From Nereocystis luetkeana (Eukaryota > Sar > Phaeophyceae > Laminariales > Laminariaceae), in contig JARUPZ010000003.1 of NCBI GenBank assembly GCA_031213475.1, positions 14,812,869 through 14,876,868 on the forward strand: a stretch of DNA of 64,000 nucleotides. Reading direction: 5' to 3'. The position numbers and the translations under genes were made by a program. Under the pieces are notes generated by a model, which was not told the DNA's origin, ran no database searches, and was given only the letters and a program-made list of their open reading frames with translations. Positions 4,732 to 62,900 of the stretch are shown here, piece after piece. The number at the start of each line of letters is the position of its first letter. Position 1 is the first letter of the stretch.

Positions 4732-4746
4732 CTGGAGGCATTCGAG

Positions 4747-6646: not shown

Positions 6647-9600
6647 TTAATATCGAACCTTGGATGATCCTGAAACCCTCTTCTCGCCGAAACGCGGAGC
6701 AATAACGCCTCCCGCCGTCTTCGCTGGCATCACCGCTGAAACGTTAGCACTCTCATTCTCCGCGAACCCTTCCGCCCCAAGCCTCGGCCCCGCCCCCGCC
6801 CCCGCCATACCAGCCCCAGCTCCGACGAAGTTAAGAGACCTAGACGTCCTCCCTCGATCGTCGCTCGTCCGCCCAGGCCCAACCAGCCTAGACCCGCCAG
6901 TACTCCGGTGAGTGCCACCAGCCCCCTTAAGGCCGAAGGTGGCGGAGGAAGCGGTAGCAGCAGCGACAGCGGTGGTGGCGGCGGCGGCGGCGGTGGTGGT
7001 GGTGGTGGTGGTGGTGGTGGTGGTGGTGGTGCCTGCCGTAGGAGCGACGGCTCCCGTAAGAGCGGCAGCGGCAGCGGTAGCGGTAGCGGTAGTGGTGGTG
7101 GTGGTGGTGGTGGTAGCAGCTGCACCGGAGCGGTTGGAATGGGATGCATTGTGGTCTCGATGATGTGATCCGAGCGGCGGCCCTCGTCCTGCTCCTGACT
7201 CTCCGTCGTCGCAGGAAATGGAATCTAATCGTCGGGTACGCCGCGCTAGGTGTTCTATGGCCCGAAGCTTTTCGGTGGGCAGTTCAGGGGAGGCGATTTG
7301 GGGACGGTTGGGCAGGGGGGAGACGGGGGAGGTCAGGGTAGATGGGGGGGGATATAGAGGGGGAGTTAAAGGAGAGATAAGGTAGAGGTGGGGGTTCAGA
7401 GCGTTTAGAGGGGGGGGATGTTTGTGACACGCTGTATTTGACATCGGTCTTGGGGATATCTGACGATTTCATATATATTCTGGGGTTTCGTATCATGCGT
7501 CTAGACAATATTTGGCGTACCTGTGTCTTCTGGTATGTGGGCACGGCTCGCCTTTGCGAGGCGCAGTCGTGATGCTAAGATACGACCCGGGGTTTGATGC
7601 TGAGATACTCCCCGTATATATGTGAGGGCAGAGCGTGAAGAAAAGATACGGCCTACTCCTGTGTGTGTGGTGTATGTACGTGCGGGGCATCTGACGTCAA
7701 GGTGTTGGCAGTTTATCCAAACATGGGGAGGAAGAACGGGAGGTCGAGGGGTGGGTAAATAGGGCTGGGTGGGTAGAGGGGGAGGATTCGGGTGGAGTCA
7801 TACCTTATTCGTGTATGCCGTCAGAAGGTTGGCACTGCTGGGCGGGGCTCCAATGGCGAACAGCCCCCCCCGCCCTTCCCACAATATGTTTTTGTTGAAG
7901 CTAATCTCGAACGAAATCGTGTCGATATATAGGGGTGTTGATCGATCGAGCCATGGACAGCCTTATTCCACCAAACAGGGCTGTGAACACGTTCGCGCTG
8001 TAAAATCGACGAAAACGAACTAGTTCCACGGTTGAATGGAAGCCGCTCTCCGATCCCCAAACAGAAACATGTCGCCAGATACAGACTAAATTACTCTCAA
8101 TTCACCTTGGTCGTGATGATCTACGGTATCAAGAAAACCCGACGACGAAAAACAAAACACCTACCTGCTCCCGATTCACCTTGTGCGAGCTGAGCTGGGT
8201 GGGAAATGAAAGCATAGACGAACACATGGAAAAACGAAACAAAAAACCTGCTCCTAGCTCACCTTGTTCTCGAGAACCTTGACGCGATCGACCCCCCTGG
8301 CGATGCTCTCCCTTTTGTCACCCCCACTCCCAATCCCCCCGGAGCCAGCGATTCCATCAGATCCATCGCTGTAGCCGCTGCCCTCTCCATAAAGGCGGGA
8401 CGTCCTTGGGCCGGCCGCCCAGCCGGGAGGGTTGGTGCCCTTAACCGTGGACGGCTTGTCCTTGTCATCAACCTTTGTTGCGAACTCCTGGCCGATATCA
8501 CGGCCGTATCAAATGGGGTGGGGAAAGGGGATAGGGTGGGGACGTATCCGCGGTATGCCATGCATAGCCGTAGTCATATGGCCATAGACCTTTGCATCTC
8601 TACCATGCCGCGACAGGACACGTCGGTTTTTTACCGACCCGGCAGGCAGGCATTTCGCTTGCACCAAGTGCGAAGCTCCGTGAGGTGTTGGGCGAGTCGC
8701 ACGAAGGGTGAGCTGCATCCTATTAAGAACTGCTTGGTGAGGCGGACGTGCACATGGATGACAGTTTCAATCACTTATTTGTTTCCACGGTGTGGCCACG
8801 TCCAGAGACGGCAATGGGAGTACTATGCACCTGCCCCGCGGGTGCCTGAGGGGGGGGGGGGGTATCCGAGTGCGTCTGTTTCTTTGAGCTGGTACAGCAG
8901 CATGCTGTCCTCCGGTTGAATTTATACATTAGTTGTTGCCTAGTGTTCTGTGTCACTTTTCGGGGTACATAGTTCGACAATCGATGTGCGTCTTCCAAAC
9001 CCTCCCCGTCATTCCAGCCTTAAGCTCGGGTGGATAAATGGTGGAGCTGTTATCGAGTCAGGTCGGGTCGGGGTTCGGGTCAGGCCAGGCCAGGTCGGGT
9101 CGGGTCGGGTCGGGTCGGGTCGGGTCGGGTCGGGTCGGGTCGGGTCGGGTCGGGTCGGGTCGGGTCGGGTCGGGTCGGGTCGGGTCGGGTCGGGTCGGGT
9201 CGGGTCGGGTCGGGTCGGGTCGGGTCGGTCGGGTCGGGTCGGGTCGGGTCGGGTCGGGTCGGGTCGGGTCGGGTCGGGTCGGGTCGGGTCGGGTCGGGTC
9301 GGGTCGGGTCGGGTCGGGTCGGGTCGGGTCGGGTCGGGTCGGGTCGGGTCGGGTCGGGTCGGGTCGGGTCGGGTCGGGTCGGGTCGGGTCGGGTCGGGTC
9401 GGGTCGGGTCGGGTCGGGTCGGGTCGGGTCGGGTCGGGTCGGGTCGGGTCGGGTCGGGTCGGGTCGGGTCGGGTCGGGTCGGGTCGGGTCGGATCGGGTC
9501 GGATCGGGTCGGGTCGGGTCGGGTCGAGGCGGGGCGGGTCGGATCAGGGTGACCTAGGCCGATCCGTGAGGTTTTGAAAACATCCTGAGCCAGCCCGACC

Positions 9601-12600
9601 CGACCCGACCCGACCCAACCCGACCTGGCCAATGATACATTAAAGATCTCCTGACGCTACCCGCGGGTGGTGTCATGACCCTTGAACAGCCCTTCTAAAA
9701 AGAAGAGAGTCAACCTTTCGCCAGTGGCCCAACCGACCGTATGTAATCTGTACGTAAGCCCGACTGCCGCAATCAGACGGTCCATCCACCTAAGTAGTAT
9801 CTGCCTTCATTTCAAATCGAGCAACGAAAAACACCATTTTCGACATACACCACGAACCATTTCCGATTTTGAGTTTGTCAGATACCGGTATTTTCTATGC
9901 TACTAAGCCCGAAGTCAGCGCTAACTGCTAGATAAGCAGTTATCGAGTGCAATCCCGCTAACCAGCGTGTCGCTAGTAGTTGCGCAAAATCCCAAAATCC
10001 AATATACCTACCACTCGTATGTCTTTTGAGCCATTTATAGGTACACTGCGTACATATTGCTCTCGGAAAAAAGGCTTCCTGGCTCTAATCCCCCTCCCTG
10101 ACTACTGGTAACATTGACAGAAAGGTTCCAGACACGCCTCTCCGTGTGTACAGCACTCAAGTTGAGCTTCGCCTATCTTTGGCTTTAATAGTACCAATTG
10201 AATGCTTCAACTGCACTATTTTTCTGGCAATTAAGATACGGCCACAGGGCCGTCGAGACTGTCAAGTACCCGCGCTGTCAACAAACACGAACAGATTGCG
10301 AGTTCCTGTTTTTTCGGGCGGAATGTGTATGTGTTTATGCTTGTGTTGTGTTTTACACAGAGTACCGCACACCCAGTAAGCGCCAAGCCCCGTGAGCACC
10401 AAATACTAAACAGGATTATTGAACAGGGATCGATTTCTTACCTGGAACCCCGTGCGTACGTACTGGCTGAGCCATTTATTGGTACACCAGATAGTTGAAG
10501 TCAGTGTGAGGTGAAGCCCAACTTGAGTAGACACAGAGAGATGTGCATGAAATATTTCAGGTAACTCTAGGCACGATACAGCAGTGTTGGCCAATCAGAT
10601 GGGAGGGCCAGGAAGCCCTTCCCCGAGCGCGATACGTTGCGAACGTGTACACGAGGCATGGCTCAAAAGGCATACTGGTGGATCGGTATACCGATTTTTG
10701 ACTGTTCGTCACACTGAGTACCTGGTGCATACCAGGTATCGAATACGTCATCGTGAGCTCGACAGTCCCTGGAACTAGAACATATACGATATGAGCATCA
10801 CTCAGTAAAATTGTTTCTGCCATCCAAGAATATGCAGCGTGAGCTTCAACTGTGACCACCCGAAAACACCCCCGGGAATAAATACGCAGAAGACCAGGTA
10901 TCTTGGATATTTTCGACGAGATATTTCCAGTTTTTAATTTTGACACCGCCAACCAAAACAGGCGAACACAGACCCTTTGCGTGTTGCCTACTTTTCAACA
11001 GTAAAGCGTCCACCGCACGCCATCTACCAATGAACACAAGCTTGAAAACGTATATAAAATATCCTGCTGCGAATTTAGGTAGCATCTGTTGCCCTAAGCC
11101 TTTTGTGGGAGCGCACCCTTTATGTTTTGCTTGGTACTCACTGTGTACCCAGGCCAATCGCGTTGCACTTGAATGCTTTCTCCGAGCCATTTTATGGGTC
11201 GAAGTACCGAACGTGTATGTGCACCCTCTACCGTGGAACGTGTCTGCGCGAGCTCCTGTTGTCGGCTACCACAGGCATGCTATTTTCGTGTTTGTGTATG
11301 CCACCCTCATCCAGTGTACACAGCGCGATGAACTTCAACGTCGATCACTCACATATAACACGTAGGTGAACACCCCCAGTACAGCACTGCCGTGAGTGTC
11401 GGCTGACTCTATTGGTCCTGAGTGCACCCCCCCCCACCCTCCCGCCCGCTCCGTCTCGAAAGGGATGCGTTGTCAAGGGCCAAATTACTAAGGCAAGCAA
11501 CAAATGAGTACGCCCCCCTCCCCCCCCCCCCCACCGCACTGTAGCGGCACGAACCTCTCCCCTGCCGTTGCACGCCCCCCCCCCCCCCCTACCACATTGT
11601 AGTGGCATGACATGAGATGAGTACCCCCGCTACTAAAATACTGTAAATAGGAGTCATCGATTAGGTATCAGTTGGTTAAGTTTCACTGCGTGTTGCGCGT
11701 GGCAAATTAAGGAGTCCTGCGTCTTGTTTTCTCACTAACGCCTCCGCAGCCCGATGTGTGCTCTTTTGTTGGTAACGACTGAATCGGTTAGTTGGTTTGC
11801 TTCTCCACCCAACTAATGACAATAAAAGTAGCCGTTAACGTCAAGTCCAAGGCAAGGGAAATGCTGCGCGTATGTCTATACCAGGTGTATTGTCTTGTTT
11901 TGTTTTTGTAGCACGCTCAACGAGTCCACACTGCACGCACCGCGTTAGTTCTCACGAAATCTTCAGGCCTGCTTGCCGCCCACAGGCCGATATCAAGGGG
12001 CCCCTTCGCTGGCCGCTGGGTGGCCAGCCGCAAGCTCCTCCCCGCCTTTACCGACTTGACCTGTCACAAGTCACGTCACGTTACAGCCCTTGAGGTAATA
12101 CTTCAGAAATATCACATCATGCACGTACAGTATTCGGGAACGTAAGAACATCTCATTAGCGAAGAACATCTCATAACAATCATAACAGCACCCGATAAGG
12201 AAAGGACTTTCCATAAGTTTATCTTACCAGAGAACAGAGACGATACCATCACAGGGGTTTGACACCCCATAGCGTAAGCACGTCCCATGATGTACATATT
12301 CACACCCGATAACTTATAGCATATTTTACGAGAACATCATCCCATAAGGAAAATAACATCTGGTAGTGTAATAACAATTGATGGCGTAAAGGACGCCCCA
12401 CAAGGCAAGAGGATACCCGAGAAGATTGGAGCTGCCGGTAACGTAATATCATTCTACAACGCACCAGCACTCCATAAGCAAACAGCATCCCGCAGTGTAA
12501 GAACATCTGATAATGTGGAAAAACCCCGCCGACCAAAACCGAAAAACGTAATACACTGGCTGGCGTAATTTGCAATTTCCCCCCCCACAAAAGTCAGAAG

Positions 12601-13489: not shown

Positions 13490-14155
13490 CCGCTGAGTGA
13501 GTCAGTCATTGAGGGAGTGAGTGAATGAGTGAGTGAGTGAGTAAGTGAGTGAGTAGGTGGGTGAGTGAATGAGTGAGTGGGTGAGTGGGTGAGTGGATGA
13601 GTGGATGAGTGAGTTGAGTGAGTGAGTGGGTGGGTGAGTAAGTGGGTGGCCGAGTGAGTGAGTGGGTGAGTGAATGAATGAGTGAGTGACTGGGTGAGTG
13701 GGAGCGTGAGTGAGTGAGTGAGTGGGTGAGGATGTGGGTAAGTGAGTGAGTGAGTGAGTGAGTGAGTGAGTGGGTAAGTGAGCGAGTCAGTGAGCGAGTG
13801 AGTGAATGAGTGAGTGAGTGAGTGAGTGAGTGAGTGGGTGAGTAAGTGGGTGGCCGAGTGAGTGAGTGGGTATGTGAGAAAATGAGTGAGTGGGTGAGTG
13901 AATGAATGAGTGAGTGACTGGGTGAGTGGGAGCGTGAGTGAGTGAGTGAGTGAGTGGGTGAGGATGTGGGTAAGTGAGTGAGTGAGTGAGTGAGTGAGTG
14001 AGTGAGTGAGTGAGTGAGTGAGTGAGTGGGTGAGCGAGTGAGTGAGTGAGTGTGTGTGCGTGAGTGGGTGAGTGAGTGGGTGAGTGAGTGAGTGAGTGAG
14101 TGAGTGTGTGAGTGAGTGAGTGAGTGAGTGAGCGAGTGAGTGAGTGAGGGGGTGC
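13490..14155. repeat. GAGT tetramer array with higher-order copies
   Basis: About 660 bases of GAGT with GGGT, GAAT and GACT variants. Within it a block of about 240 bases that contains GGGAGCGTGAGTG and GAGGATGTGGGTAAG is present twice (about 13640-13750 and 13870-13990), so parts were duplicated as larger units. The long Leu-Thr-His-Ser frames on the minus strand are produced by the repeat and are not genes. Confidence 0.95.
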
Positions 14156-38270: not shown

Positions 38271-41200
38271 ATGCCAGTCTCACGTGACTACCCGTTCATA
38301 CGATTACAACGAACGGGTGTAGGGGCTCTGCTGGTGGCGTCGTGGCTGCTGCGGGCAGCGCAGTGTCTTGTGGTCCCCACAGGGTCGCGCTTTGTCGTCG
38401 TTGGCAGACCAAGGATCGTCGCCAGCCGCTCAAGCCTCGAACTGTCTCACAAGGGTGTCCGCCATGGAGGTGAGGAAGAGCCTGGAAACCTGTCAGCCTG
38501 GGAACCCATTGCGAGTACTTCCTCCTGTGTGAGGCTGTGTCCTCACTCGGTCTCTCGGCGTGCCCCCTATTGGAGCTGCTGGCCCTGATGATGCTGCTGC
38601 TGCTCCTGCTGCTGCTGTGTCGGCTATAATGCAACGTTTTGGTACTGGTTTCTTGTACGAACAGACGATTGAAACCTCGAAACATGACAAACTGCTCCTT
38701 CACGCCTTCACGTGCGTGAGCCATGAACCCCACCGCCGTATACTACGATTACAATGACACCTGGTATTGATAGATGAGAGGGCTTGAGCAGGCCTCTAGC
38801 TGGACGGCGTCCTCTTAGGCTGGAGCCGTAGTTTTGCCAGTAGTGCATAACTAATAATCTTGGCTCCAGGGTTTTCCGGCGGTACAGCAGTACAATAGTC
38901 TGCCCATCCATCGGGTACAGCAGCAGTACCCACCACAGGAAGTAATAAAGTACTTGTCAGGTGCTGCTGCTTAAAATGCCCTTTTAGAACCGCAGTCCCA
39001 TTTTGGGGGCAGACTACTTACATTTCAAGCACTTTGTCCCCAAAACGGGACTGCGGTCCTAAAAGGGGCAAGGGCCTTGTCCGCTTGCGTTGCGTCAACG
39101 CTGCAGCGGTTTTGCAGCGGCCGTGCTCTCTCGACCTGATGTTTCATGTCACAGCAGCAGCGCCCGTCCGACAATGCCCAATGACAAATCACGTGATAGA
39201 GGATACATCAGCCTCGGCGACATCCACAGCTGTACATTGATCGAGCGTTGTACCCGGGAGGTTCATTTCAAAGGTTCTTCCAGAGTTTACAAACAAGCGA
39301 GGTTCCCTCTGATTTTCCCTCTTGACCTAATACCAAGTACCTGGTATATAGTGTCTAGTGATGATCTTCAACACAGCATTAGGTTCAGCTGTCAGGGCTT
39401 GTAGCAGTCTCCCCCGACAAGCCAAGCCACGACTGCGAACTGACTGCAAGTGCATACTTTGCGCACCTCGGATAGACCAGGCAGATCAGGGAGATCAGAT
39501 ATATCAGACAGATCAGACAGATCAGATAGATAATGTAGATCAGACATATCAGATAGATCAGCAGACCAGATAGATCATACAGATCAGACATACCAGATAG
39601 ATGATATCTATCAGACGGACCAGATATATCAGACAGATCAGACATATCAGAGTGATCATATAGAAACTAACCTGCCGTATCGAAGTGGTGTGCACGATCT
39701 GTGTAATAACAGGTCCAATCCAGGAAACATGTGATACAGTAGATCATGCAGATTGTACGGCTCCCACCTGGCAACAACATGAACTAGATCATACAGATCA
39801 TACAGATGAGGAATATATCTATCTATTTGCCCTCGGATATGGAGATGATCATGTTGAAATTATATGTATGACTTGTCCGACGTGGTGTGCACGGCGCTGC
39901 CCCGGTATATACCGCAGTATCAACTGATATTGCTTTAGCTGTAGTCATACTAGGCCATACTATTGATAGGTAATACTAGGTATGAGTTTCTTTACCACCT
40001 AACTTCAACCTGATATCTCTCTATTGCTCCTATGAAGAATCAGCACGGATACGTCCTGTCGTTAGCGCTGGGTACATATCCGGTACATACATATACATTA
40101 CAAGTTAAGAGTTTCATGTCAAGGTGACACGAGCACGCACACGAACACACACTTCCTTTCCCACCACCCCCATCTCTCATGCCCGGCTCTTGCCCGCTGG
40201 AAATCACACATGAAATGTATACCACCAGTCGTACTTCGTATTTCTATAAACTTATTACGAAAACGTCAGCTGTGAAATCAACCGATTGAATGGTTAAAAC
40301 GTATGGCAGTCCGTTCTACTTTGACGCGTCCAGGTCTTTTTTGACCTTAACACCGTAGTTTTAGTGTAGGGGCCCGTCAAGGGTGTCAAACCTCGGTTTC
40401 CTGCGTATACACATGTAGCCATCGAAGTAGCACACTACTGTCAGCTTTGCTAAGATGAGTTTCGAGTGAAGTATTCGATCTCACCGCTCCGTTGCGTTTG
40501 TGTGTGTGTGTCTTTCTCTAGTTACACGTGTATGCTTCACACGCGTACGTATCATGTTTGCTTGACACGCCTCCCGTCTCTCCAATTCCCCGCACCCCGC
40601 ATCCCCGAAAAATGTGCGAAAATAGCTTCCAGAGTGGAAACCCTGACGATGGCAATGCCAGGCGCGGGCGGTCGACGAGGAGGAGGCGGCGGGAGGGGCG
40701 GCGGGAGGGGGAGGGGACGCGGTCGAGGCGTCCCCCCGCCAGATGCGTTCGCGCTCACCGGGGACGAACGCCTCCAAAAGTTCTTGAGCCACGCGGGGTT
40801 GGACTCGAGGCGGCAGTGCGAGCAGATGATACTGGACGGACGCGTTCGTGTTAACGGGAAGATGGCGAAGGAGCTCGGGATCAAGGTGGGAGGATGGTAG
40901 GGTGGGTGGAAACCCTCTCGCTTTTTCTTCAATTTCTAAAGTGACACCTCTGCTGTCGGTGCGTGAGATCTAGCATTTCGTGGAGTGGCCCCATCTTGGC
41001 AAGCTGCGCGTGTATCGATTGTGCGACGGTACGCCCTATGAATACGTAAGGGTTGGGTGCGGCATCATGGAGGATTTAGGCCGGCATGCTACTGTTGTAG
41101 TATTGTTGTTTCGGGGCCTACTCTGAAAGCTTGGCTTCAGCAAAATGGTCGAGAGGATAGGGGCGTTGGGGTTTACAGCGGGAAGACGAGGAAGGGTGCC

Positions 41201-43167
41201 GGCGTGTTTATTTTAGTGTTTTTTTTTTTTTTTTGGGGGGGGGGGGGGGGGGGCTACTCCAAACCCAGCTTCGTCGAAATAGGTGATGGTGCACAAAAAA
41301 ATCCTCAGTACAGCTTCATCCCTAGAAGTCTGTTTGGGAGGCGTTGGTGACGAGGGGCTAGAGCTCCGGAGGATATATATATATATATATATACCTGGTA
41401 ATATATATATATATATTATATATTTCAAGCACAGAGTGTGAAGTCTCATATGCCGCATGGTGTTATATGTCTACCAGGTTATCGAAGCAGTCGTAGACAA
41501 ACTTTGACCTGCGATTACGCCGCTTTATGGGCGGCGCGATCGGGTTTGCAAAATATTTTTTTTGCGATGACGGTAACGAGGGGGGTGTACTCGATAGGAG
41601 AGATGTACTCGATATCATGCATGGCCGGAGTCGTATGCATAGAGGGGGGGGGGGGTGCACTTGCTGCTGCTGTAGCTATCATACATACTTTATTAATAGT
41701 ATACAGTAGCAGCGCCAGCACATATAATACCTCTTTGGGCCTGACCCCGGTCTTGGGGACAATTTCTTAAAAATCAGACAGCTTGTTCACAGCGCGGTTC
41801 TAACAGAAAAAATGGGATTTTTGCATTTTTTTCTAAAGTTCTATTACGGGGGACAATAGTAAATAGGACCTACGGTGCACCCAAAAACCTCAATATTTCC
41901 CTATTTTTTCTAACAATATTTGGTCCTGTTTACTATGGTCCCCCGTTCTAGGACAATTCATATAAAACCTTTTGTTTCGATGCCGGAGGGTAGGTACACC
42001 GTGCTCCGGTATATATACATTTCGCGGTTTGCGCTTGCGCTGCTTCAAATAAACCGTTTCAATGGCGGAAATACAAGGATCGTTTTAGCCATAATGTGAA
42101 TACGAAACGGTCCTTACATTTCCGTCCAGAGTGGTAGTTGTTCGTGGGGTTAGGGTGTTGCACACAAAGCACGCTTCTTGTATGAAAATACGGGGTTGCT
42201 GCGCCCCCCTCCCCTCCCCTCCCCTCCCCTCTCTTCCCCGGGTACCCCGGTTAAACTTGTTTACTTTCTCAGGCTGTATATGATTTCGCGGGTTAGCATC
42301 TGGTGCTTGCTATTACGGGGGGCCATAGTTAACAGCACCAAATATGTTAGTAAAGATTGTTAAAACATCTAGGTTTTTATGTATACCATAGGTCCTGTTA
42401 ACTATGGCCCCCCGTAATAGACAGGTGCCCCCCCCCCCCCCCCCCCCTCCCCGTGTCCCTCTTTCCGAGTAAACACCGTGTGCTTGAGGGATAAATCAGT
42501 CGGCAGAGCCCCCTCGGTGTTGGGCCCGCAACTGCTGTTGGAGGCGTTTCTATTAGGAGTAGGCACGGTCCTCCGTCTCGAAAGGGATGGGTGGCCAATG
42601 GTCAGATGCCTAAGGCAATCAACAAATGAGCCCCCCCCCCCCCTCCCTTCTCCTCATGGCGCTTAGCGCTTGGTGCAAGCGATGCCTGCCTGGTCGGTGA
42701 AAACCCGATGTGCTCCGTCCCGGCATTTTAGGGATGCGAGGGTTTATGGTCACACGCCTACGGCCATGCCTGATGAGATCGATTTCGCCCCTCCCCCCCC
42801 GGGATGCTTGGTCAATGATCAAATGATTAAGCCAAGCAACAAATGAGTACCCCCCCCCCCCCCCCGTCCCTCTCCCGCCTCCCCTGCTTGCGACTTGCAA
42901 CACCTTCCCCTGGCAGGTGGACCCCAGAAGAGATCAGGTACACGTTGATGGAAACCGGGTGTTCATGCGGCCCAGCTCGGAAATAAAGTGGGTAGCGCTG
43001 AACAAGCCGAAGGGGGTAATCTGTACGGTGTCGGACGAGCTGGGAAGACCGACCGCGGTCAGCGCTGTGCCGAGGGGGAAGGAAATGAGGCTGGTGCCGG
43101 TGGGCAGGCTGGACCGAGATAGCTGCGGGCTTCTGCTCATGACAAACGAGAATGCTTGGGTGCGTTT

Positions 43168-43199
<32 letters not shown>

Positions 43200-43938
43200 A
43201 TTTATTCTTACGTTTTATTTTGGCATTTTTTTCTGGAGAAACGAAAGATGATTCTTGGGGTTTGTCTAAAAGAACAAAATAAGGGGGAAAAAAATACACT
43301 CCACATTGAACAAATCATCGATGATTCCCCTCCCCCCGCGCGTGGTCCAAGCAATGTCTGCCTGGTCTGTGAAAACCCGACGTACTTTGTCCGGGCATTG
43401 TAGGGATGCGAGGGTCTATGGTTATACAACTACGGCCATGCATGATAATGAGTACACCCCCTCCCCCCCCCCCCCTCCCCTCCCCGTGTCATATTGGGTG
43501 ATGACGCAATGAGCGCCAAAATGGTTGACGTTTATCTGTTGGGAGTGTGGGAAGGGTGCTCCGTCTCAAAAGGTACGCGTGGCCAAATTGTCGAATGACT
43601 AAGGCTAGCAACCAACGAGTCCCCCCCCCCCCCCCCCCCTCCACTCCCGTCTTTCGACTACGTACGGCCATACATGAGACATGAGTACACCCCCCCCCCC
43701 CACCCCCCCCCCCCCCCAACTCCTCTCCGCCTCCGCCCCCGCCTCTAGATCAACCCGCTGACTCACCCTTCGTACGGCCACGAGAAGACCTACCGCGTCT
43801 CCATTACTTCTGGGTACCCCAACCCGGAGGAGTGGAACACGCTGACGCAGGGCATGCTCTTGGACGGAGACCCGAATCCGTGAGTTTCGGTCTGCTATTA
43901 TCGGTTGCCTTTTTTTAGTTTGTTCGGCCTGCTACTAT

Positions 43939-43982
<44 letters not shown>

Positions 43983-46421
43983 TGTTTTTTTCTTTTTCTT
44001 TTTTTTTCGGTCTGCAAGTAATGGTTGCCTGTTGTTGTTGTTGTTGTTTTTTTTTTTTTTTTTCGCTGATGTGCACAGACGCCATGAACATGTTCCTGGT
44101 ATCCTTCGGTTGCAGGCGAGTACCGAGTCCTACAACTCGATATTTACTGCGAACCCGCGCCGTGGTCGAAAGGCCTACAGCAACGGCCTCTCCTTCGAGA
44201 CGGGTGCGCCCTCTTGTGGACATTTCTACTGTCTCTCTTGTGCGGTTCGCCATGGGAAAAACGGACGAGCCCCGGACGTGAAAATAAATAAATAACACAA
44301 CGCAAATCTAGGGCAGGGGCGGCGGCTTTTTTGTCCGTCTGTGTCCTTCCGTTGTTGGGGAAAAAAAATCCTTGGAGAATTTGAGTCAGATTTAGGTACA
44401 TGTATTCCTTGCAGTACTCGAAGGGTTGAGCTTGTCGCGTAACCCCCCCCGTTCTCTGGAATCGATTCGACGCTTGCGCTTTCAAAATACGCGAAAAAAA
44501 AAGAGTCCGCCTCACAGTGCGGCTCTTGGTAGAGTGCAAGCTCGCCCTTCTTAATTTTTTGGCTCGCCGAGCGCCTTCCTCACGGCGCGCTTCGCAAAGC
44601 TTGGTGCAAAAGTAACGCCTGCCTGGTCGGTGAACCCCCCCCCCCCCCCCCCCCCCCCGCCGACGTGCTTCGTCCCGGCATTGTATATAGGGATGCGAGG
44701 GTCCATGGTACTACATACGACTACGGCCGTGCATGACATGAGTGCAACCCCCCCCGCACCGGTGCTCCGTCTCGCAAGGGATGCGTGGTCAATGGTCATA
44801 TGACTAAGTCAAGTAACAAATGAGTACGCCCCCTCCCCCCCCCCCCCCCCCCCCCACCCGACCCCCCCCCCCCCCTCCCCGCTCCAACATGCCTCCATTC
44901 TCAGTACGAGACCCTGCATTGTGGAGGTGGTGGACTTTGACAGGCGGTCGTTGGTGACAACCGTGGACATCATCATTCGGGAGGGCAAGAACAGGCAGAT
45001 CCGCCGCATGTTCCAGGGGGTCGGTCACGACGTCCGGTCCATCACGCGCATATCTCACGGACCGATCAGGTTGAAGGACTTGCGGCCGGGAGAGTGGCGA
45101 TCTCTCGAGCAGGTCAGAGGCCCTGAGAGGTTGTACGTGTCCTTGTGCAACCAGTTCGCGCACTGGATGAGGCGCACGATGTGAAGTAGTTTCGGGTTCT
45201 TGATGTTGTAGAATCTGTGTAGCACGAGAGTCCGCATTCTGGAGATGGTGTAAGCCAGCTAAATGTATACCAGGTATACGTGTATATGTTGTAGGGACAG
45301 GCAGGTGAGCAGACGAATGATTGCCTAAGCAGTAGCAGTGCTACTACTGTCTGCTGCAACAATGTCAACAGCAGCTCGTCACAAACCGGACGTAACCGGA
45401 TGCAAGATTGTACGGCTCCCACCGGGCAACATGAGCTAGATCATACAGATCGTACAGATCACGCAGATCAGGAAAAGTTGCCTGCTTACATCTTCCTATA
45501 TGTAAGTATCTCTGAATTGTATTGTTAACATTGTTAGTATCAATTCGTACAGTAGTGGCACACTAGCTGTTCTTATGTACCTGGTATTCATTTTATTGTG
45601 GACCTCGTACATATGTCTATGTATTCATATTAGCACCAGACACCAGACACCAGGCACAACATGTATAATCGTGGCCGCGGTACGCACGTGTCTAGGGGGG
45701 AAGCGGGCCGGAACACGTTTGAGTTCGCTGACTTGTGCTGGACAAACACCCGCAGCTGACGTCCACTGTTTCTTACCCCGCTCCTCCCCCCCCCCCCGCC
45801 CCCCCCCACACCTTCACACTCCATTTTAATATGCACACAACGCCATCGACGACGCAGTGGGAGGTCGACAAGCTCAAGAACTTGACCACCAAGACCCTCA
45901 AGAGCCCCCAGAAGCTCGCGCCCTCGCCGAACCGAGGAGACAGCCGGAACCGGGCAGGACCCGGACCCAAGGCTCGCACGTCCTCGCGTGCATCCCAACA
46001 GTACCGCCCGGAAACCCACCCCCGAGACGCCCTAGACGATGAAGAAGACGAGTGGAACAAGACCGGTGCCTGGGACAGAAGCGGAGTCAGGAAGGCTGTG
46101 GCTCCTGGTCGGCGCTCGGGGAGGAATTCCTCTCGCAGGCAGTCCGAATCCCCCGCCGCGCCTGTTCGCGAGGAGGACTACGAGTGGCAGACGGCCTCGT
46201 GGGCCAGGCAAGATGATCGACAGCCCCAGGGGGGTGGGAAGGCGCGCGGGGTGAAGGGGAAGGGGGAGCGCAGGGCGAGGATGACCGAGGGAGACCTGAT
46301 CTTGGAGAGGGTTTCGAAGGGAGAGAAGCTCAAGGCACCCGCCTGGGAGGGGGGTGGGAAGGTGGAGCGGGAGAGGAGGTCCATGGGGAAGGGGAGTTGG
46401 GGCCGCAGAGGGAGGCGATGA
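38271..46421 (+). CDS. Plastid-type rRNA pseudouridine synthase (RsuA/RluB family)
   Basis: Isomerises a uridine in rRNA to pseudouridine, judged from the family. Six exons join in phase: 38271-38469, 40626-40885, 42917-43159, 43749-43879, 44905-45112 and 45858-46421, predicting about 534 residues. Exon 1 encodes a signal peptide (ALLVASWLLRAAQC, then LVVP) and a basic Ser-rich segment like a transit peptide, so import into a complex plastid is likely. A Gly/Arg tract covers residues 80-101, and an S4 RNA-binding domain (ERLQKFLSHAGLDSRRQCE) about 113-150. The catalytic motif GRLDRDSCGLLLMT has Asp at about 219, followed by HPSYGHEKTYRV and REGKNRQIRRMF. The donor of exon 5 (CAG then GTCAGA) is weak, but the join gives GEWRSLEQWEVDKLKNL, which matches the usual end of the family fold. 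Without it, the protein ends at TGA 45182-45184 after 23 other residues. The last exon is a basic, disordered tail. Exon 1 rests on phase and targeting logic. Confidence 0.85.
38978..39069. repeat. MITE family 2 copy in intron 1
   Basis: GCCCTTTTAGAACCGCAGTC and its inverted partner enclose TTTTGGGGGCAGACTACTT. This is the best-preserved copy of the family in the window. Confidence 0.9.
39475..39850. repeat. AGATCAGACAG satellite plus composite repeat, copy 2
   Basis: Degenerate 10-mers AGATCAGACAG and AGATAGATCA run to about 39660. Then the composite unit seen at 2105 follows (AACCTGCCGT, AACATGTGATACAGTAGATC, GCTCCCACC, ending ATATCTATCTATTTGCCCT). In intron 1 of the pseudouridine synthase gene. 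Confidence 0.8.
41216..41254. repeat. T run followed by G run
   Basis: A T run of about 16 bases is followed directly by a G run of about 18 bases in intron 2. Confidence 0.95.
41371..41425. repeat. AT tract interrupted by a TACCTGGTA palindrome
   Basis: Two AT runs flank ATACCTGGTAAT at 41391. The same palindrome sits inside AT tracts at 50687 and 59817. Confidence 0.9.
41579..41657 (-). repeat. C-tailed repeat, module B, short copy
   Basis: GGTGTACTCGATAGGAGAGA, then GATATCATGCATGGC and CGTATGCATAGAGGGGG: tail end present, truncated by a G run after about 70 bases. Antisense to the pseudouridine synthase gene. Confidence 0.7.
41844..41948 (-). repeat. TA-MITE copy in intron 2
   Basis: Left terminus TTACGGGGGACAATAGTAAA; right terminus slightly decayed (CCCCGTTC). 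The inner asymmetric part is inverted relative to the 26397 copy. Confidence 0.88.
42053..42136. repeat. MITE family 3, CCACTCTGG type
   Basis: Right end GGTCCTTACATTTCCGTCCA then GAGTGG; the left end is decayed. The best relative is at 56488-56568. Confidence 0.55.
42313..42417 (+). repeat. TA-MITE, intact 105-bp copy in intron 2
   Basis: TTACGGGGGGCCATAGTTAA at both ends in inverted orientation, TA on both sides. Confidence 0.93.
42565..42645 (+). repeat. C-tailed repeat, module A
   Basis: CCTCCGTCTCGAAAGGGATG to AATCAACAAATGAGC and a C run, sense to the surrounding gene. It is followed directly by a module B copy. Confidence 0.8.
42650..42799 (+). repeat. C-tailed repeat, module B
   Basis: CGCTTAGCGCTTGGTGCAAG, GTCGGTGAAAACCCGATGTG, GGGATGCGAGGGTTTATGG, then a C-rich tail. 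It is truncated at the far end compared with the 330-bp copies. Confidence 0.8.
42800..42867 (+). repeat. C-tailed repeat, module A, beside a 3' splice site
   Basis: GGGATGCTTGGTCAATGATC, then GCCAAGCAACAAATGAGTAC and about 16 C. The C run lies 50 bases upstream of the exon 3 acceptor at 42915-42916. Confidence 0.85.
43338..43485 (+). repeat. C-tailed repeat, module B
   Basis: GTGGTCCAAGCAATGTCTGC, GTGAAAACCCGACGTAC and ACTACGGCCATGCATGATAA, then GAGTAC and a C/T run. In intron 3, sense orientation. Confidence 0.8.
43550..43640 (+). repeat. C-tailed repeat, module A
   Basis: GCTCCGTCTCAAAAGGTACG to GCTAGCAACCAACGAGTC and about 18 C. In intron 3, followed by a short module B copy. Confidence 0.78.
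43645..43722 (+). repeat. C-tailed repeat, short module B, beside a 3' splice site
   Basis: GACTACGTACGGCCATACAT, then GAGTACA and two long C runs leading straight into the acceptor of exon 4 at 43747-43748. Only the last ~40 bases of the module precede the tail. Confidence 0.75.
43938..44065. repeat. GGCT tetramer and T/GTT runs in intron 4
   Basis: Eleven or so TGGC units at 43938-43985, then T-rich and GTT runs to about 44063. Confidence 0.93.
44566..44752 (+). repeat. C-tailed repeat, module B with internal C run
   Basis: CGCTTCGCAAAGCTTGGTGC, TGCCTGGTCGGTGAA, a C run of about 22 bases replacing part of the module, then CGACGTGCTTCGTCCCGGC to CATGACATGAGTGC and C. Intron 4. Confidence 0.8.
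44755..44880 (+). repeat. C-tailed repeat, module A, beside a 3' splice site
   Basis: GGTGCTCCGTCTCGCAAGGG to GTCAAGTAACAAATGAGTAC and C runs to 44877. The acceptor of exon 5 follows at 44903-44904. Confidence 0.85.
45415..45475. repeat. AGATC composite repeat, fragment
   Basis: GTACGGCTCCCACCGGGCAA, ATGAGCTAGATCATACAGAT and CAGATCAGGAA are in the order of the composite unit. It lies in intron 5, between the alternative stop and the last exon. Confidence 0.7.
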
Positions 46422-52224: not shown

Positions 52225-52345
52225 ACCCCACCCGACGTGTACTTCGTCACGGCATTGTAGAATTGTAGAGAGGCGAGGGTTCATGGTCATACGACTACGA
52301 GCATGCACAGCATGAGTACCCCCCCCCCCCCCGCCGTCCCCGTCC
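52225..52345 (+). repeat. C-tailed repeat, module B, short copy
   Basis: CGACGTGTACTTCGTCACGG to CATGCACAGCATGAGTAC and about 16 C, then a C/T-rich stretch. No plus-strand gene is recognised next to it. Confidence 0.72.
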
Positions 52346-53988: not shown

Positions 53989-56900
53989 TCAAGCGCCCAG
54001 TCCGAGTCGCGCGTAGCTCGCCGCTATCTTCGCGCGCTTCTCCTTCGCGGTCTCGGCCTCTTGGTCAGGGGATGCAACCCGAGCATCCTCCCCTGGGGAT
54101 GAAACCTGAGCATCCCCGCCACCCCCAGCTGGCAGAACGCCTCCTGCGACGGTACGGCCGTCACGGTCGGCGTCTTGGCCCAGAGGCCCGCTGCTCAGAG
54201 CAGGGGAGGCGGGTGGGGTGTCGCTGGCTTTTGGGAGCTCGTGGGAATACGCGGTGGTGGTGGCGGCGGCTGCGACAGTGGTGATGGTGATGGTGGTAGG
54301 GGCAACCTTCACTTTTGGTGCTGCCGCTACTGCTGCTGCTGCTGCTGAGGTCTCCCTGTCGATTCGCAGAGCGGCTTGGAATTCCTCGTCCTGCTTATCG
54401 ACGGGCAGAGCGGCATTTGTTGCATCGGTCAAGCGGGGATAAGAGCGAAATGGTTCGGGGAGGGGGAGGGGGGGGAGGGGGGGGGAGGTACTCTTTTGTT
54501 GCTTGCGTTAGTCATTTCACGATTGACCACGCATCCCTTTCGAGGCGTAGCACCGTTCCAGCTCCTAGTAGAGATAACATTTGGGCGCTCATTCCGTTGT
54601 TTCCAAATATTACATAGGAAAAATTTGCTCATCTCATCCCCTTCCTGTTTCGCCGCCTGTGGCCACCATCCATCTCCGAGGATAGCGATCGTTTTGTCGC
54701 TTCTATTTAGTTAACCAAAATATTATCCACATCACTTTGGCCGGGGGGGGAGGGGGTTCTGGGATTTTTTTTTATTTTAATGTCGACGCAACGCGGAATA
54801 AGAAACGCACGATGATTTTAGCGCCGATTGATTGGGGTCCATCAGCACCCCCGGTGGCTTGGTATACCATGCGGGACAACCTCGGCCAATAACAATGTCC
54901 TGCGTGGCGGAAAAACAAAAACACGAGGAGCCCGTGGAGAAAGACACACGGAATTGATAGAGGGGGGGGGGGGGCGACGATATACCCATTTTATCCCTTT
55001 TAGGACTGCAGTCTCGTTTTGGGGACAATTGAGGAAAAATTACTTGGAATTTGAGTGGACTGCCCCCAGAACGGGGCTGGAGTTCTAAAGGGGTTGAGGG
55101 TTAGTCACGCTTGAGGGACAGCCGCGACCAGAAAATAGTAAAATTCATTTCGGGGCACATGAAAGAGAAGGTACGGGGGGGGGGGGGACTAAAAAGAGGG
55201 GTGGAGAGGGAGGAGGCCGGCTGGGAAAGCGGAAAAGGGCGCGCTCGCGGGGGAGGAGTTGCTCTATATTCGCGACGCTACAGCAAGTAAGGATACGATT
55301 GGAAGCGTCTGGATGCGTACGCGGCATACACGTGCATTTTACCATTCGGAAGGAACGAGGGGTGTTGGCAGGGGCAGTTCAGTCGCGTCGACGAAAGACA
55401 GTGCCGGGGGTGGAGGAGGAGGAGGGGGGGGGGGGGGGGGGGGGGCAGCGTCGGGCGGTTGAATAAAATGGAACGCGGAATGGGATATGGGCGAGCGGCG
55501 AGATATACGCCCAAAAAAAGAACGCCTGCTGCCGGACAACTAAAAACCGAAGATGATTTATTTCCGGGGCGGGGGGGGGGGGAGTGGGGGGGCAAACACG
55601 AGGAGTTCGTTCGCGGAAGGGAAAACGATGAAATGCCAAAAAACGATTTTTCGTTGTTGGGTGAAAAACAGCACACAAGGAGCATGATGTAGAGCGGAAT
55701 ACAACGCGCCGAACGGGGGAAAAAAAAAAGAGCAGACGAGACACCAAAAGCTACGCAACCAAAAACTGAAAAATCGAAGCCACCTGCTGCCTCCGGAGGC
55801 GAGTAAAGGCGCTCCCCCCCGCCGATGGACTCGACCGAGATCCGACTGCGAGCGTTTCCAGCGCCCTCGTCACGTTAACGCGGTCCTCTTCGGGCGACTG
55901 CCCCGGACCTTCTGACGATAAAATTGTGGGAAGAAGAGGAGGAGGGCGGGTGTGTGAGAGAGGCCGGGGTGCACTCCTTATTATGCATGGCCGCCGTAGT
56001 CGTATGACTATTGACCCTCGCGTCTCTACAATGCCGAGACGGAGCACATCGGGTTTTCACCGACCAGGCAGATATTGCTTGCGCCAAGCGCGAACCGCCG
56101 TGAGGTATTGGGCGAGTCGCATGAAGGGTGGGCTGCATCCTACTAGGAACCGCTTTCCAGACGGATATTCTTGCTTATGGATGACAAGCATCAAGTGATT
56201 GTTTTAGTTATAGTGTGACCATTTTAGTTCGGAAGGGGGAGGCGGTGGCAGGCAGACGTCTTACCAACGATCCACGCGGGCCTTCCTTGGCAAACGTCTC
56301 ACCCACAATCCACGCGAGCTATGATTGGGGATTTTCGTAGCAGTTTTGTTCCGCCAATTCTGTTCCTAGAAGTCAGGATTCCATAACCCAAAATCGCCGG
56401 TATGCTGCCGTTTTTGTTCGACAGCTTGAACGTTTTTGTGTATAGCTACTGCTGTAGGCCCTGGGGTGGTTCTACGGGGTGCACTTGCCACTCTGGACCG
56501 AAATAAAGGGACCATATTTACACTAATCTTAAACAAAAACGGTCCTTATAATTAGAGTCAGAGTGGTACCATTAATAATAGTATAGAAATCTCCTTAAGG
56601 TCAAGCGAGGAACCTCAGAAAAAAAATGGTACACCTGCTACGCGGCAATGTACTCTATGCACTGGTGTACACAGTGGTACAAGCGACGTTGTGTCAAAAA
56701 GGAACGACTCTGCTCCGTTATCAGGCGGCGACGACTGCTTAGACGACGACTACGCCGGTCGCCAACGCCTTCGTCAGGCGTATGTCTCGGCCGCCAAGCC
56801 TGCCACTACAGACTATTATAGATGATACTGGCTATTAACACCAGGTACTGTATACTGCTAAAATAAGCAATAAGTCAGACCTATCTAGTACACCGTACAT

Positions 56901-59900
56901 ATTTTTCGCCGCTGCTCTGAGGCTGGGACTGAGACTTACCGCTGCCCGTGCCTCCCGCCCCCCGCGCCCTCCCTGCCCCCGCCACCGAAACCGCCGCAGT
57001 TGACGTTGCCCGAGGCATGACCAGCCCCTCTTCCAGAACTCCCAACAAGCACTCCAGCATGTTCATGTGGGCGGCTGGTGCGGGCTCGCGCAACACCCAC
57101 GCGTAGTCCGCCCGACCACCCTCACCCCCGTCAGCACTTGCGCCGGCGTCAGCAGCAGTGGTAGCAGCAGCAGCGGCGGCGGTGGCGGCGGCGGCGGCAG
57201 GGGAGGCGATGGCAGTAGCGTCTGGGTACTCGGCCGTAGGCGCGGCTTGCTCCATGACGAAACCCGCCAGACGCATGAGGCGTCTGCCGCACGCCCACCT
57301 GTACGGGGGAGGGTGGTGGGCATTTTACCAGTACAAGTAGAGTGTGGGCGCAGAAGGGAGTATGTAAGACTGGGTGCATAAATACGTTTCGCTCTTATTC
57401 AGTTTTGCTTTGCTCTTCCCTTGGTTTTCCTCTTCCTCCTGGGAATACGTCGGGCGATGATCAACGCCAAGAGCTACTACTGCTGTAGTCCAATAGGCTA
57501 CTGCTATTATAGCCCAGTGGCCTCTGCTTCACAGTTCAATAAGCTCGTACTGTAGTCCACAGGCTACTACAGTCCAATAGTCTACCGGAATCCAATACCA
57601 GTTCTTTGGTTCCCCTCGGTTTTCTTCCGCTTTTGGGGAACGTTTATGAGTGGGCTACTATAGTCCAACAGGCTAGCATAGGCTCAATGGGCTACCATGT
57701 ACTATTACGGGGGACCATAGTAAATAGGACCAAACATTGTTATTACGGGGGGCCATAGTTAACAGGACCAAATATTGATGGTAAAAATGGTTAAACGTAT
57801 AGGTTTTTATGTATACCATAGGTCCTGTTAACTATGTTCCCCGTAATAGTAAAAATAGGGGAATTATTTAGTTTTTTGTGTGTACCGTAGGTCCTATTTA
57901 CTATGGTTCCCCGTACCATGTATCCCCACAGTCTACGGTAGACCAATAGGCTACTGCAGTCCAACAGTCCACGTACTGTACTCCGGTAGAATAATAGATA
58001 GTTCGAGAGTGATAACTGTTGAAGATCATGCTATTGAAAACACCCTGTCGGATGGCAAAGGCTACAACAACAACACTACTCATCATGACAATGACGATAA
58101 CATTTGCTGTCAGCTGCAAGCAAGCACAGCCGAAATGTTGCGGCAAAGGGTACATACGTACGGACACAGCAGTACACGTTTGAAAAACCAAATGCGAAAC
58201 TAAAACTTTTTTCCCCCCCCCCGAGGTCAATTTTGGGGGACAATATTGAATAGGATTTTTTTTTTTTTCTTTTTTTTTTTGCGTTTTGCTATCTGCGTCT
58301 GTTTTGGTTTTGGTTTTGTTTTTGTTTTGCTTAGCTTCATCTTCTTTTTTTAGGTTTTTGTCTGCTATTAATAGTCTCCTTTTTGCTTCCCTGGTGTCCG
58401 CAGTGGTGGAGTGCGTATGCTTGTTTTTTTTTTTTTTTTTTTTTTGCCTATGTTTTTACTTGAGGTATTTCTTCCACTCCAGAGTTATTGGAGCCTGTCC
58501 TGCGACCACGGACTGCATTGTATTGTGAGTTAATGTGAGAACAACAACGACAACAACAAGGACCTAGGATATACACAAAAACCTATATATTTTGCTATTT
58601 CTACTCACAACATTAGGTCCTATTTACTATCGTCCCCCGTGATAGGTGGACAGCGGGGTGGGGTGAAGGGATACCAAAAAAAAACCTCAAACATATATAC
58701 CGATAAAAGTTTTTACACCACACCACTCCGGACGGTAATATAAGCAACTTTTATATAGTAATACCTACTCCTAACAGTTCTCATTTATTTATCGAGACAG
58801 ACTCGTACGCGCAACCTTTTGACACTCGTACGCGCAACCTTTTGACCGTAAATATAGCACCCGTTTGGAGTCTAATTCCAACATCAAAAGTTCCTTATAT
58901 TTCCAGCCAAATCGGTAGTATCTTTTTTCATAGTTTGCTTCGTGCGCAAATCTCACCCCCCACTGGCTTGTTTTTCATTTATTTATTGCGGGGGACCATA
59001 GTAAATAGGACCTACGTCACGCACAAATCCTACCTATTTCCCTATTTTTACCAACAATATTTGCTCCTATTAACTATGGTCCCCCGTAATAGGACGTGCA
59101 TCTACAGTACTGTAGGAGCTAATGTGGGTGTCGTGTCATTTGCCGCCGGAGTTAAACATTATTTCCGAGAAAATGCGAGCGGCGGCGGCGGGGGGGGGGG
59201 GGGTGCGTGGGAATGCACTCGATAGGAGAGATGTGCTTGATATCATGCGTGGTCGTAGTCGTCTAGCCATAGACCCTGGAGGGGGGGGGGGGGGGGGGGG
59301 GGGGGGCGTACGGTAAGGGGCTTGCCCTGTCTGGGCTTGTCGTCTAGCCATTATTTGGCTTGAGAAGTAAGCAACCCCCCCCCCCCGCGACTTTTATTAA
59401 TAGTACAAATTTACTCTTATGAACGGTTGCACTGTCCGAGGCACAACACTCGCCAGGCAGGGACACTGGTACGATGCAAAAACATAAAATTCTACGAGTG
59501 AAGGTGACCGCAAGTAACTAATAGGGGGGGCGGGGGGGGGCAGAACTGCGTTTGATACCTGGCTGGTATAAATCAGAACCGAATAGGGTGTGCAAACAAA
59601 GGGGGATAGGGGGGGGTTTCGGGTCCTTCCTGGGTCCAGATTAGAATGTACTACTACGGCCCTGTAATTGATGACTATGATGCAGCAGTGGTCGGCGACT
59701 CAATGTCAGCCCATTCACGGTCCTACCGACAAAAAAAGAAATAAATAAAGAAAACGAGGTGGAAGTAAATAAGCAAGCGTGTAGCGTTTTTTTGCGGGGT
59801 TTGGGGACGGAAACGTATACCAGGTATATAATATTATTTCTCTTGCCACCCGACAATGTGCAGCATGATCTTCAACATTGATCACTCGTAACTTTTCCGA

Positions 59901-62900
59901 AAGAAGAAAACCTCGGAAACACAAGGAAACCCACGCACCTAGTCTACCTCCTCCCTTCTGTGCCATTTAACACAAGGTTGGGCGGAGGTGTGGAAATATC
60001 AGGGGTTGGTCGGGCGTAGAAAAGCGGCCGAAAAACAGGAACGATGCGTTCGCAACACGTCGGCCAGAAACAATAGCGGCGTGTCCATTTGGGGGTGGGA
60101 GCAAAAACAAGCAGCAGCGATACGATAACGCTATACTGCAGAAGTCAGGTGCATCTTGGGGATAAAAGCTAGGTGTTAGTATAACTGCCCCCCCCCCCCC
60201 CCTCCCCCCCTCCGTCTCGGCAATGTAGGGATGCGAGGGTCTATGGTCATACGACCACGGCCATGCATGAGATCGAGCGCATCTCTCCTATCGAGTACAC
60301 CCCCCCTACCCCCCCTCCCCACTGCCTACTGCTCTTGGCTTTGCTTCGAAACTGCCCCGATTTGTGTATGTGTTTTTTTTTCTTATTTTGTTCATCTCGA
60401 GTTTCGTACCCACTCGTCTCGTTTGGTCAGATATAGACATCATAGAGATGGCGAAAAAGCTACAATAACATCTATCGCCACGAGGGCGTGACCATAGCAA
60501 AACCAGAGACACTTTTTTCAAAACAGCATTCCCAGGTAAGTAGTATTACTATAATAGTAGGTTCCGTCCGTCGCTGCTTCGTCGTAGTCCGATGCCGGGA
60601 CCTTGGTGTACGCCTGTCACAATATTTCAACGAGCGATGGGGTGCACTGCAGCTGCCGGAGGAAAGCGTAACGGCTATGAAAAAAAAAAACGGAGGAAGA
60701 TTTTGTAACCGTATAAAAACGGGGCTCAACTCCCTTCCCCACCCCCCGGACTCTGCACAAGGAGCAAAACAGCGTTTTTCACGGAGAAAAAAAAAATATA
60801 TATCCTATATATATATACAGGATATACTTGAAGTATATATATAGGATATCCTCTCACCTGCCCACAGCCCTGAAAAACGCCGGATTGCTGTCCCGCACCC
60901 TCCGACGCCCCGCGTTCCCCCGCACAATGTTCTTGACCAGCGTACTCAACGTGCGGCACAATATCTGCCGGTTCGCCTCGGACCCGACCTCCTCCGTCAC
61001 ATCCCACTCCAGAACAGTGATCACCTCTGCCATCACGGCGTCCCAGTCCCTCCCGCCCGCCTCCCCACCCGTCCTCCCACCGCCGCTGCCGCCTCCAGCG
61101 CCTAGAGGGCGTAGATTGGACGGTTCGATGGATGCGTCACGGACATGACTGTTAGGGGAACGGTTACGTATGCCGTCAGGTGCAGGGGGGGGAACCGAAA
61201 TTCCAACCGTAGAGCCATCCATCACGGGGTCCCAGTAGCCTCCTTCACGCGCGCGCAATCCGTCAGGCGCGTGGACTCCGTTGCTAGGCGCGCGGAATCC
61301 GTCACGCCCGCCGAACCGATCGGTCGCGCGGAATCCGTCAGATGCACGGAGTCCGTCCGGCGCCCGGGTTCCGTTATTAGATGCGTTGAATCGGTCAGGC
61401 GCGCGGAATCCGTCTGCAGTAGATGCGCGGAATCCGTCGGTACTCCTGGATCCGCGAGGCAGTCCGCCAGCATCAGCAGCAGCAGCCTCGGTAAGGTCGG
61501 CGTATCCGGCCGTGGCTGCGGGCGCGCGGAGCGAGGAGGGAGGGAGGAACGCGACAGGGTGGCCTGCCGTGTCGGCTATGCTGTTACGGATGGCTGTCTG
61601 GATCCGCTCGTCCTCGGCTGTGTCTTCGAGTTGTTGCTGTTGTTGTAGGTGGCGGTGCTCGTCGGCCTGTCGCTGTTGCCAGGTGGAGCGCACGGTCTGC
61701 ACGCGAATGAAGCAAGCAAGGAAGCCCGTGTCGACCGGCGTCGAAACGAGAGAGTGGGCGGGGAGGAGGGGGGGGTGTACTCGATACGAGATATGTACTC
61801 GATCTCATGCATGGTCGTAGCCGTATGACCGTAGGCCCTCGCATCCATACCATGCCGGGACGGAGTATGTCGGGTTTTCACCGACCAGGAAGACATTGCT
61901 TGCACCAAGCGCGAAGAGCCATGAGATGTCTGGCGAGTCGCATGAAGGGTGAGCTGCATCCTACTAAGAACCGCTTGTGAGGCGGACTTGCAACATGGAT
62001 GACAGCTTCAATGAGTTGATGTAATTTCCGGTGTAGGCACTTCCAGAGACAGCAGTGGGAGCACTATAAAACTGTCTCTTGGGTGCCTTACCATAAACAC
62101 TACCTGGTACGTGATACGATCATTCCCACTTGTGCGGAGTAAAGGTTCTTCGCCTCGCACAAACGATCTAACTCGACTACCAGCTGTGACCGACCGCACA
62201 AATAAATAAACAAATAAATAAATAAAAAAGGTACCCTGGTTGTCTAGCTCACGTAGTGGGCGGCATGTTTTACAGTGTCGATGCCAACCGACGCCAACCC
62301 ATCCGATAGATAATAGGGAGGGGGGGGGGGACAACAACATTTCACATATCTGACCGATGAGTTACAGATCAGGTCCCCACTAACTCGTGATCTACATCTA
62401 CTGTGTGACACGGAAGGGGTGCATATATCACCTGCAACGTCAACATCATGCGTGCCGAGTGGGGGGTGAATGACACGGCTCTCACGCACATGTTTGGTAC
62501 TATCTGTAGGTTGCATCTGCATGTTTCGGATCTTACGCTACATATGATGCCATAACGGCAAGTATATTACGCAGGGTGTCAAGAGATTAAACCAATTCGG
62601 TTGGGTTACAAAAATATTGAGGAGCGCTGGTTGATTGAGCAGGTGAATGGATACAAAAGACGTTACAGCCAATCTAAAGTTGCTCCGCTTGCTGACCAAT
62701 CAGAAGTTGCACCGAACTCAAGCGATACAACAGTAGGTCGTGCCTGGCCCATGCGCCCATGTATGAACGATTCGAGTTGGTTTTGTCACGCGCAGGGTAC
62801 ACAGCCACCAGGAGAAAAGTGCTCATTTTCTTGCACGGTTACACGAAGGAATAATTCATACCAGGTAAATAGCTTGAGTCAGCCGGAACGGATTTTTTAG

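Follow-up and report, generated by a model that had tools for sequence, protein, structure and literature searches.

A C-tailed repeat recurs near the 3' ends of introns in the 64-kb stretch of the Nereocystis luetkeana genome analysed here (64,000 nt, hereafter the window), which raises the question of whether the repeat makes these introns, supplies their splicing signals, or enters them once they are in place. The gene at 40.6-45.2 kb was identified by Pfam as a pseudouridine synthase with an S4 domain, of RsuA/RluB type according to the names of its protein matches, with the best named matches in Discosporangium and Laminaria; Pfam searches of stop-masked frames, over part of the window's strands, returned synthase domains only. 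The first-pass annotation had placed repeat arrays in introns 2-4 of this gene, in the orders A-B-A, B-A-B and B-A for two short modules A and B. The arrays were found in that place and order, and all three coding introns end in one, but the gene has four coding exons and three coding introns, which are numbered 1 to 3 here. Intron 1 (40886-42916, plus strand, 2,031 nt, exon ends set by homology) carries at its 3' end an A copy (42571-42630, then C13), a truncated B (42653-42783) that begins right after the C tail of this A copy, and a truncated A (42800-42850) that begins right after a C run and whose C16 tail ends 51 nt before exon 2 (42917-43159, placed by homology). Intron 2 (43160-43748, 589 nt) holds a truncated B (43337-43456) after CCCCTCCCCCC, an A copy with a C19 tail (43559-43620) and a short B remnant (43662-43717), a member of the repeat family with a weak profile match (E 2.7), whose C12AC15 tail ends 31 nt before exon 3 (43749-43879). 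Intron 3 (43880-44904, 1,025 nt, reading phase PN|P-T-R-P-C) contains a B copy (44504-44746) and an A copy (44765-44875) whose C21...C14 tail ends 29 nt before exon 4 (44905-45184, with the stop codon at its end); all of these exons, introns and copies lie on the plus strand. The last C run had been put at 24-50 bases before the three acceptors, and our values for runs of seven or more Cs (C7+; other run lengths are written likewise) place exons 3 and 4 within that range and exon 2 just beyond it. A further exon near 44116 was considered and rejected, as its reading phase did not fit and the protein continues directly from 43879 to 44905. The B copy of intron 3 contains an internal C24 (44635-44658) where other copies read AAAACCC, which looks like microsatellite expansion within the element. 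By eye, inverted repeats around TATTACGGGGG...CCCCCGTAATA were also seen near the synthase arrays, at about 41840-41950 and 42310-42420, and these look like small DNA transposons.

Repeat and profile analysis of the window upheld the existence of both modules, each of which terminates in GAGTAC followed by a C run, and the variability of their 5' ends. Module B had been described as up to ~340 bp, a length exceeded by the longest copy, of about 545 bp (62319-61776, minus strand), which lies between C11 on its 5' side and C8 on its 3' side. The division into two separate modules is probably to be replaced by a single non-coding retroposon with A and B as its subfamilies. The B profile matches an A copy (E=7.5e-5) and the A profile matches B copies (E=0.006-0.01); pairwise tests of A against B gave mixed results, with between 0 and 430 of 2000 shuffles scoring as well, so that common descent is likely rather than certain. 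A C5+ run lies within 30 nt of the 3' end in 16 of the 19 window copies and within 45 nt in 38 of 42 B copies outside the window, and in 153 tails from read-through open reading frames (ORFs), proline makes up 27% over 8 residues at the tail vs 7% further on. The 3' end is thus fixed and the 5' truncation variable, as in retroposons mobilised by LINEs. The longest copy lacks a strict Pol III A or B box (loose B-box-like matches with up to 3 mismatches only) and has no Rfam match at E<=1, and so shows neither the Pol III promoter nor the small-RNA head that would make it a SINE in the strict sense. Evidence for a conserved hairpin at the 3' end of the element was weak, since of 15 pairs a single one had both sides changed, and Rfam and tRNA scans of the 64-kb window returned nothing.

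The same layout had been proposed at five further acceptors, all on the minus strand. It was reproduced closely at 4732, where C7+ ends 27 nt before the exon, and loosely at 54391 (77 nt) and 61697 (71 nt), but no C7+ lies within 140 nt of acceptors 8488 and 55912. These five acceptors are defined by open frames only, and Pfam found nothing in four of the five exons, the one at 4732 not being among those scanned. The minus-strand copies beside them are B copies at 4774-5083 (C14 tail), 8556-8847 (beginning after C13, with no C5+ run at the 3' end) and 55970-56194 (short degraded tail), an A copy at 54488-54550 (interrupted C tail) and the longest copy. Of the 14 clusters in the window, 8 lie at acceptors proposed earlier, three of which have protein-homology support; the other six lie elsewhere. 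They comprise a possible B remnant at 3635-3675 (plus, weak, E about 6), downstream of which, at 70 nt, an AG precedes a coding-like frame; an A copy at 11449-11511 (plus, C9 on the 5' side and C13 on the 3' side); a truncated B in antisense in the middle of synthase intron 1 (41586-41640, minus, C12 directly 5'); and truncated B copies at 52230-52317 (plus, in a C-rich tract, C14 tail), 59214-59277 (minus, between C26 and C14) and 60210-60299 (plus, between C15TC7 and C7). In a test with a weak codon model trained on 11 ORFs, coding sequence was detected just past the array ends in 6/14 cases in the window, 0/14 in fixed-position stretches and 3/22 in hit stretches (null 8%), with 3/51 in the antisense control; by this weak model, most of the tested copies outside the window have no detectable coding sequence downstream. 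Long tandem repeats, open in several frames (PDPTR and THSL repeats), were seen at 9054-9572 and 13495-14154.

Long C runs flank the copies on their 5' side as well. The 5' end was scored in those 13 of the 19 window copies whose boundary there is clear, the full-length copy being given a hand-placed start, and C7+ lay within 30 nt in 10 of them (null 1.4%); over all 19, C5+ was present on the 5' side in 13 and on both sides in 11, and C7+ on the 5' side in 11. In some window copies the 5' C run is the tail of a preceding copy; at seven sites (8847, 52230, 60210, 41637, 59277, 11449 and the full-length copy), it is not. Outside the window, 18 of 44 B copies had C7+ within 35 nt 5' (null 1.3%), vs a single one with G7+; in three of the outside B copies the match starts from the leading C11 of the query, so that their 5' C run falls inside the match and is uncounted. 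The remaining 26 had no C7+ within 35 nt 5', and several near-full-length ones abut sequence such as TATACCTGGTATATA. Sequence of this kind, or its reverse complement, directly precedes several near-full-length copies (L010, L012, L020, L045), and may belong to the genuine 5' end or mark a further hotspot of insertion. Of 17 5' junctions in ORFs of other contigs, 14 were proline-rich (null 10%); these 17 were kept by hand from 33 candidates, the rest of which resembled frame-shifted element sequence or members of arrays, with a few judgement calls. Viewed from the runs, 17 of the 34 C10+ runs in the window have a same-strand copy next to them, where 5,000 random placements gave 1.05 on average and 8 at most, and none has an opposite-strand copy beside it; the other 17 have no copy within 30 nt, two of them (11575 and 44862) still belonging to arrays. 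Arrays recur beyond the window: in other contigs, 26 of 153 downstream flanks outscored 99% of shuffles in their match to a further element fragment (1.5 expected). C runs flank many copies at both ends, so insertion into such runs is probable for this element and would account for the head-to-tail arrays too, and the same flanking runs would hide any target-site duplications. No empty site was seen in the DNA, and the flanking runs could instead have arisen as target duplications or by later expansion. Copies lie inside the repeat, in one orientation, as those of an element with a simple-repeat target do, and because only 18/44 copies outside the window have a 5' C run, this target is a preference rather than a strict specificity.

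In a reverse test, stronger than that for coding sequence past array ends, the position of C runs and copies relative to exons was then measured at 32 short internal kinase exons, which were selected from 139 Pfam matches before any upstream sequence was seen, with duplicates and tandem clusters mostly left out; 700 nt of upstream sequence was taken for 20 exons and 300 nt for 12, and distances run to the start of the domain match, which is not a proven exon start. Within 150 nt upstream, C7+ was present in 13/32 exons (null 5%, P about 4e-9), G7+ in 0/32 and T7+ in 3/32; within 75 nt (L049-L080), C7+ occurred in 10/32 and T7+ in 2/32. The C excess extended beyond this stretch: further upstream, C7+ was found in 6/32 exons at 150-300 nt, 4/20 at 300-450 nt and 1/20 at 450-600 nt. 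A sense copy of the element lay within 300 nt upstream of six of the 32 (L055, L056, L064, L074, L076 and L079; about 0.7 expected, P about 5e-5) and none of the 32 had an antisense copy that close, so the enrichment and sense bias near 3' intron ends expected by the first-pass annotation were borne out at exons chosen blind. The 20 exons with the longer upstream sequence had three sense copies and two antisense ones at 300-700 nt. Five of the 13 exons with a C run also had a recognisable copy within 300 nt and eight did not, two of the latter (L060 and L063) having a sense copy about 650 nt upstream. Long C homopolymers were seen upstream of several kinase exons with no repeat within 300 nt. 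The tests from the exon side and from the copy side agree: many acceptors have a C tract, some have a copy, and most copies lie elsewhere. The view that the repeat supplies the pyrimidine tract of 3' splice sites is weakened, because eight of the 13 C-run kinase exons have no recognisable copy within 300 nt and, at the six window acceptors with a C run, 27-77 nt separate its end from the exon. Three of these six acceptors are proven, and at several of them other pyrimidine-rich sequence lies between the C run and the exon. The C run may act as a pyrimidine tract or otherwise in splicing, and the element may reshape splicing signals.

The family extends well beyond this locus. Twenty fixed-position 10-kb stretches (200 kb of the 465-Mb genome) contained 21 copies, distributed unevenly, with eight stretches carrying all of them, and an 84-nt B query against the genome gave 1,834 first-look candidates, 40 of which were scored. 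Several B copies keep one reading frame open; its translation matched 464 proteins at E<=0.1 among 719 candidates (120 among the matches listed), and that of the 3' part of B matched 131 at E<=1 among 133 (120 among the matches listed), and 196 distinct listed protein matches were aligned to a hand-made consensus. The read-through frame matches Laminaria digitata proteins and many contigs, including some of other assemblies. Read-through of the element was seen inside three Laminaria digitata database proteins (P0222, P0230 and P0280), which are likely to contain mis-annotated exons or exonised copies. Scans with DNA patterns of the element gave no match in viral contigs or in bacterial and archaeal genomes.

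Any explanation has to accommodate the anatomy of the copies, their flanking C runs, the arrays, the excess of sense copies upstream of exons, and two introns that are older than the copies they hold. The best explanation, at a probability of about 0.68, is a SINE-like non-coding retroposon that inserts in sense orientation into C runs by means of a partner LINE. In the proposed sequence of events, a candidate partner LINE would copy the element by way of a common 3' end, GAGTAC plus poly-C, and would nick a genomic C run on its G strand; the Gs at this nick would anneal to the RNA's C tail and serve as primer for reverse transcription, and the copy would end up within the C run and in its orientation, usually truncated at its 5' end. 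Each landing would leave C runs on both sides as the target of the next copy, and thereby build head-to-tail arrays. Target-primed reverse transcription in C runs would in this way yield the C tail, the one-sided truncation, the flanking C runs, the arrays and the sense bias in one step. Target choice is also the better reading of the location: copies would enter C runs and collect in sense at 3' intron ends because sense-strand C runs are concentrated there. The earlier proposal of a poly-C-tailed mobile repeat that becomes, or prefers, 3' intron ends survives in that the repeat is tailed, 5'-truncated and in sense there; the introner-like origin named as an alternative is not supported for introns 1 and 2.

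An introner, in which the repeat made the introns and brought its own 3' splice site, would explain why copies end close to acceptors in sense and why all three synthase coding introns carry them. This origin was examined in orthologs, represented by eight read-throughs from other contigs that are 75-89% identical to the query protein. All eight cross the exon 2 acceptor and two cross the exon 3 acceptor, with proline runs there never longer than two; five of the eight at exon 2 reach upstream to the position of the window's C run, and the other three extend only 12-13 residues. One ortholog (P0006) contains what looks like the whole of intron 1, at 153 nt vs 2,031 nt in the window. Because the orthologs keep both intron positions without the repeat, an introner origin fails for introns 1 and 2, where the introner pattern of copy boundaries coinciding with intron boundaries, and of introns absent without a copy, was not found. 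As judged from these alignments, the copies entered introns 1 and 2, the two introns tested, after the introns existed, and copies also lie antisense in mid-intron and away from acceptors; this is the least probable of the explanations considered. Scarcely better placed is a scheme without retroposition, in which gene conversion or segmental duplication copied the intron ends together; it would suit like arrays in three neighbouring introns of one gene, but the order of A and B and the truncation points differ among the three arrays, the flanks at separate array sites look different, and copies with one fixed 3' end occur in many contigs of this genome and in contigs of other assemblies. Recombination or slippage of C-run microsatellites, spreading attached sequence between C runs with no reverse transcription, fits the C runs on both sides of copies and the C24 run inside one B copy, but is nonetheless highly unlikely in view of the one-sided 5' truncation and fixed 3' end. 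Target-primed reverse transcription typically leaves just this signature, truncation on the 5' side and a constant 3' end.

A more serious competitor, though still an unlikely one, dispenses with target preference: the element would carry its own C tail, insert anywhere, and survive preferentially where a sense C tract near an acceptor is harmless or useful; its tail would then provide or lengthen the pyrimidine tract, with copy-free C runs at acceptors representing decayed copies. Several observations suit it. Outside the window, coding sequence was detected after only a minority of the tested copies; a copy lies within 300 nt of five of the 13 C-run kinase exons, and about 650 nt upstream of two others; and the C run at exon 2 looks lineage-specific, because none of the eight ortholog read-throughs, five of which reach far enough, shows a proline run longer than two. 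It leaves unexplained, however, the C runs directly 5' of truncated copies and the C runs of 18-25 nt without an adjoining copy. A wider claim, that a retroposon targeting C homopolymers has settled in a large proportion of the alga's introns at their C-rich 3' ends and, in a self-reinforcing manner because each landing leaves new C runs, both uses and rebuilds the C-tract signal genome-wide, is offered tentatively, as more doubtful than the insertion preference itself. If insertion into C runs is right, it would provide a clear case of a mobile element steered by target preference to the splicing region, in sense and without making introns; it would offer a mechanism for the growth of introns at their 3' ends (2,031 nt vs an apparent 153 nt in one ortholog), show how a lineage gains very C-rich 3' intron ends, and make the role of C runs in brown-algal splicing testable. 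The prevalence of C7+ over T7+ within 150 nt upstream of kinase exons (13/32 vs 3/32) is notable by itself.

Among published elements, the nearest candidate is RTEX-N1_Ec32 of Ectocarpus, likewise from a brown alga, non-autonomous and of similar length, as compared by description (PMC12477816). It is described as about 600 bp long, dependent on a LINE and the most abundant family there with over 6,000 copies, and, the origin of its 5' region being unknown, it was left unclassed as a SINE; intronic transposable elements in Ectocarpus include 5'-truncated LINEs and short non-autonomous families (PMC12477816). The main text of that paper gives no match for the terms 'poly-c' or 'polypyrimidine' (PMC12477816), and a literature search at the level of titles and abstract openings, outside subscription journals and supplements, returned no poly-C-tailed, C-run-targeting element or equivalent in brown-algal introns. 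Introners are mobile repeats that, like the element described here, end near splice sites, but they create introns, whereas the two tested synthase introns appear to predate the present copies (PMC9860276). Togen-type microsatellite-specific non-LTR retrotransposons share insertion into a simple repeat, but Togen is a LINE family at (TG)n, and the present element is non-coding with a single-base C run as its target (PMC4640811). The green-algal SINEX SINEs and RTEX LINEs have simple-repeat 3' ends, and the SINEs resemble the present element as short non-autonomous sequences whose 3' tail is shared with a LINE; the tails given in the text available of that paper are (A)n, (ATT)n, (CTTT)n, (CA)n, (CAA)n, (CCAT)n and others, (C)n being absent among them (PMC3747384). 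As far as the available text of these two papers goes, simple-repeat tails and targets are already known from other LINEs and SINEs, a C run not being among them (PMC3747384, PMC4640811).
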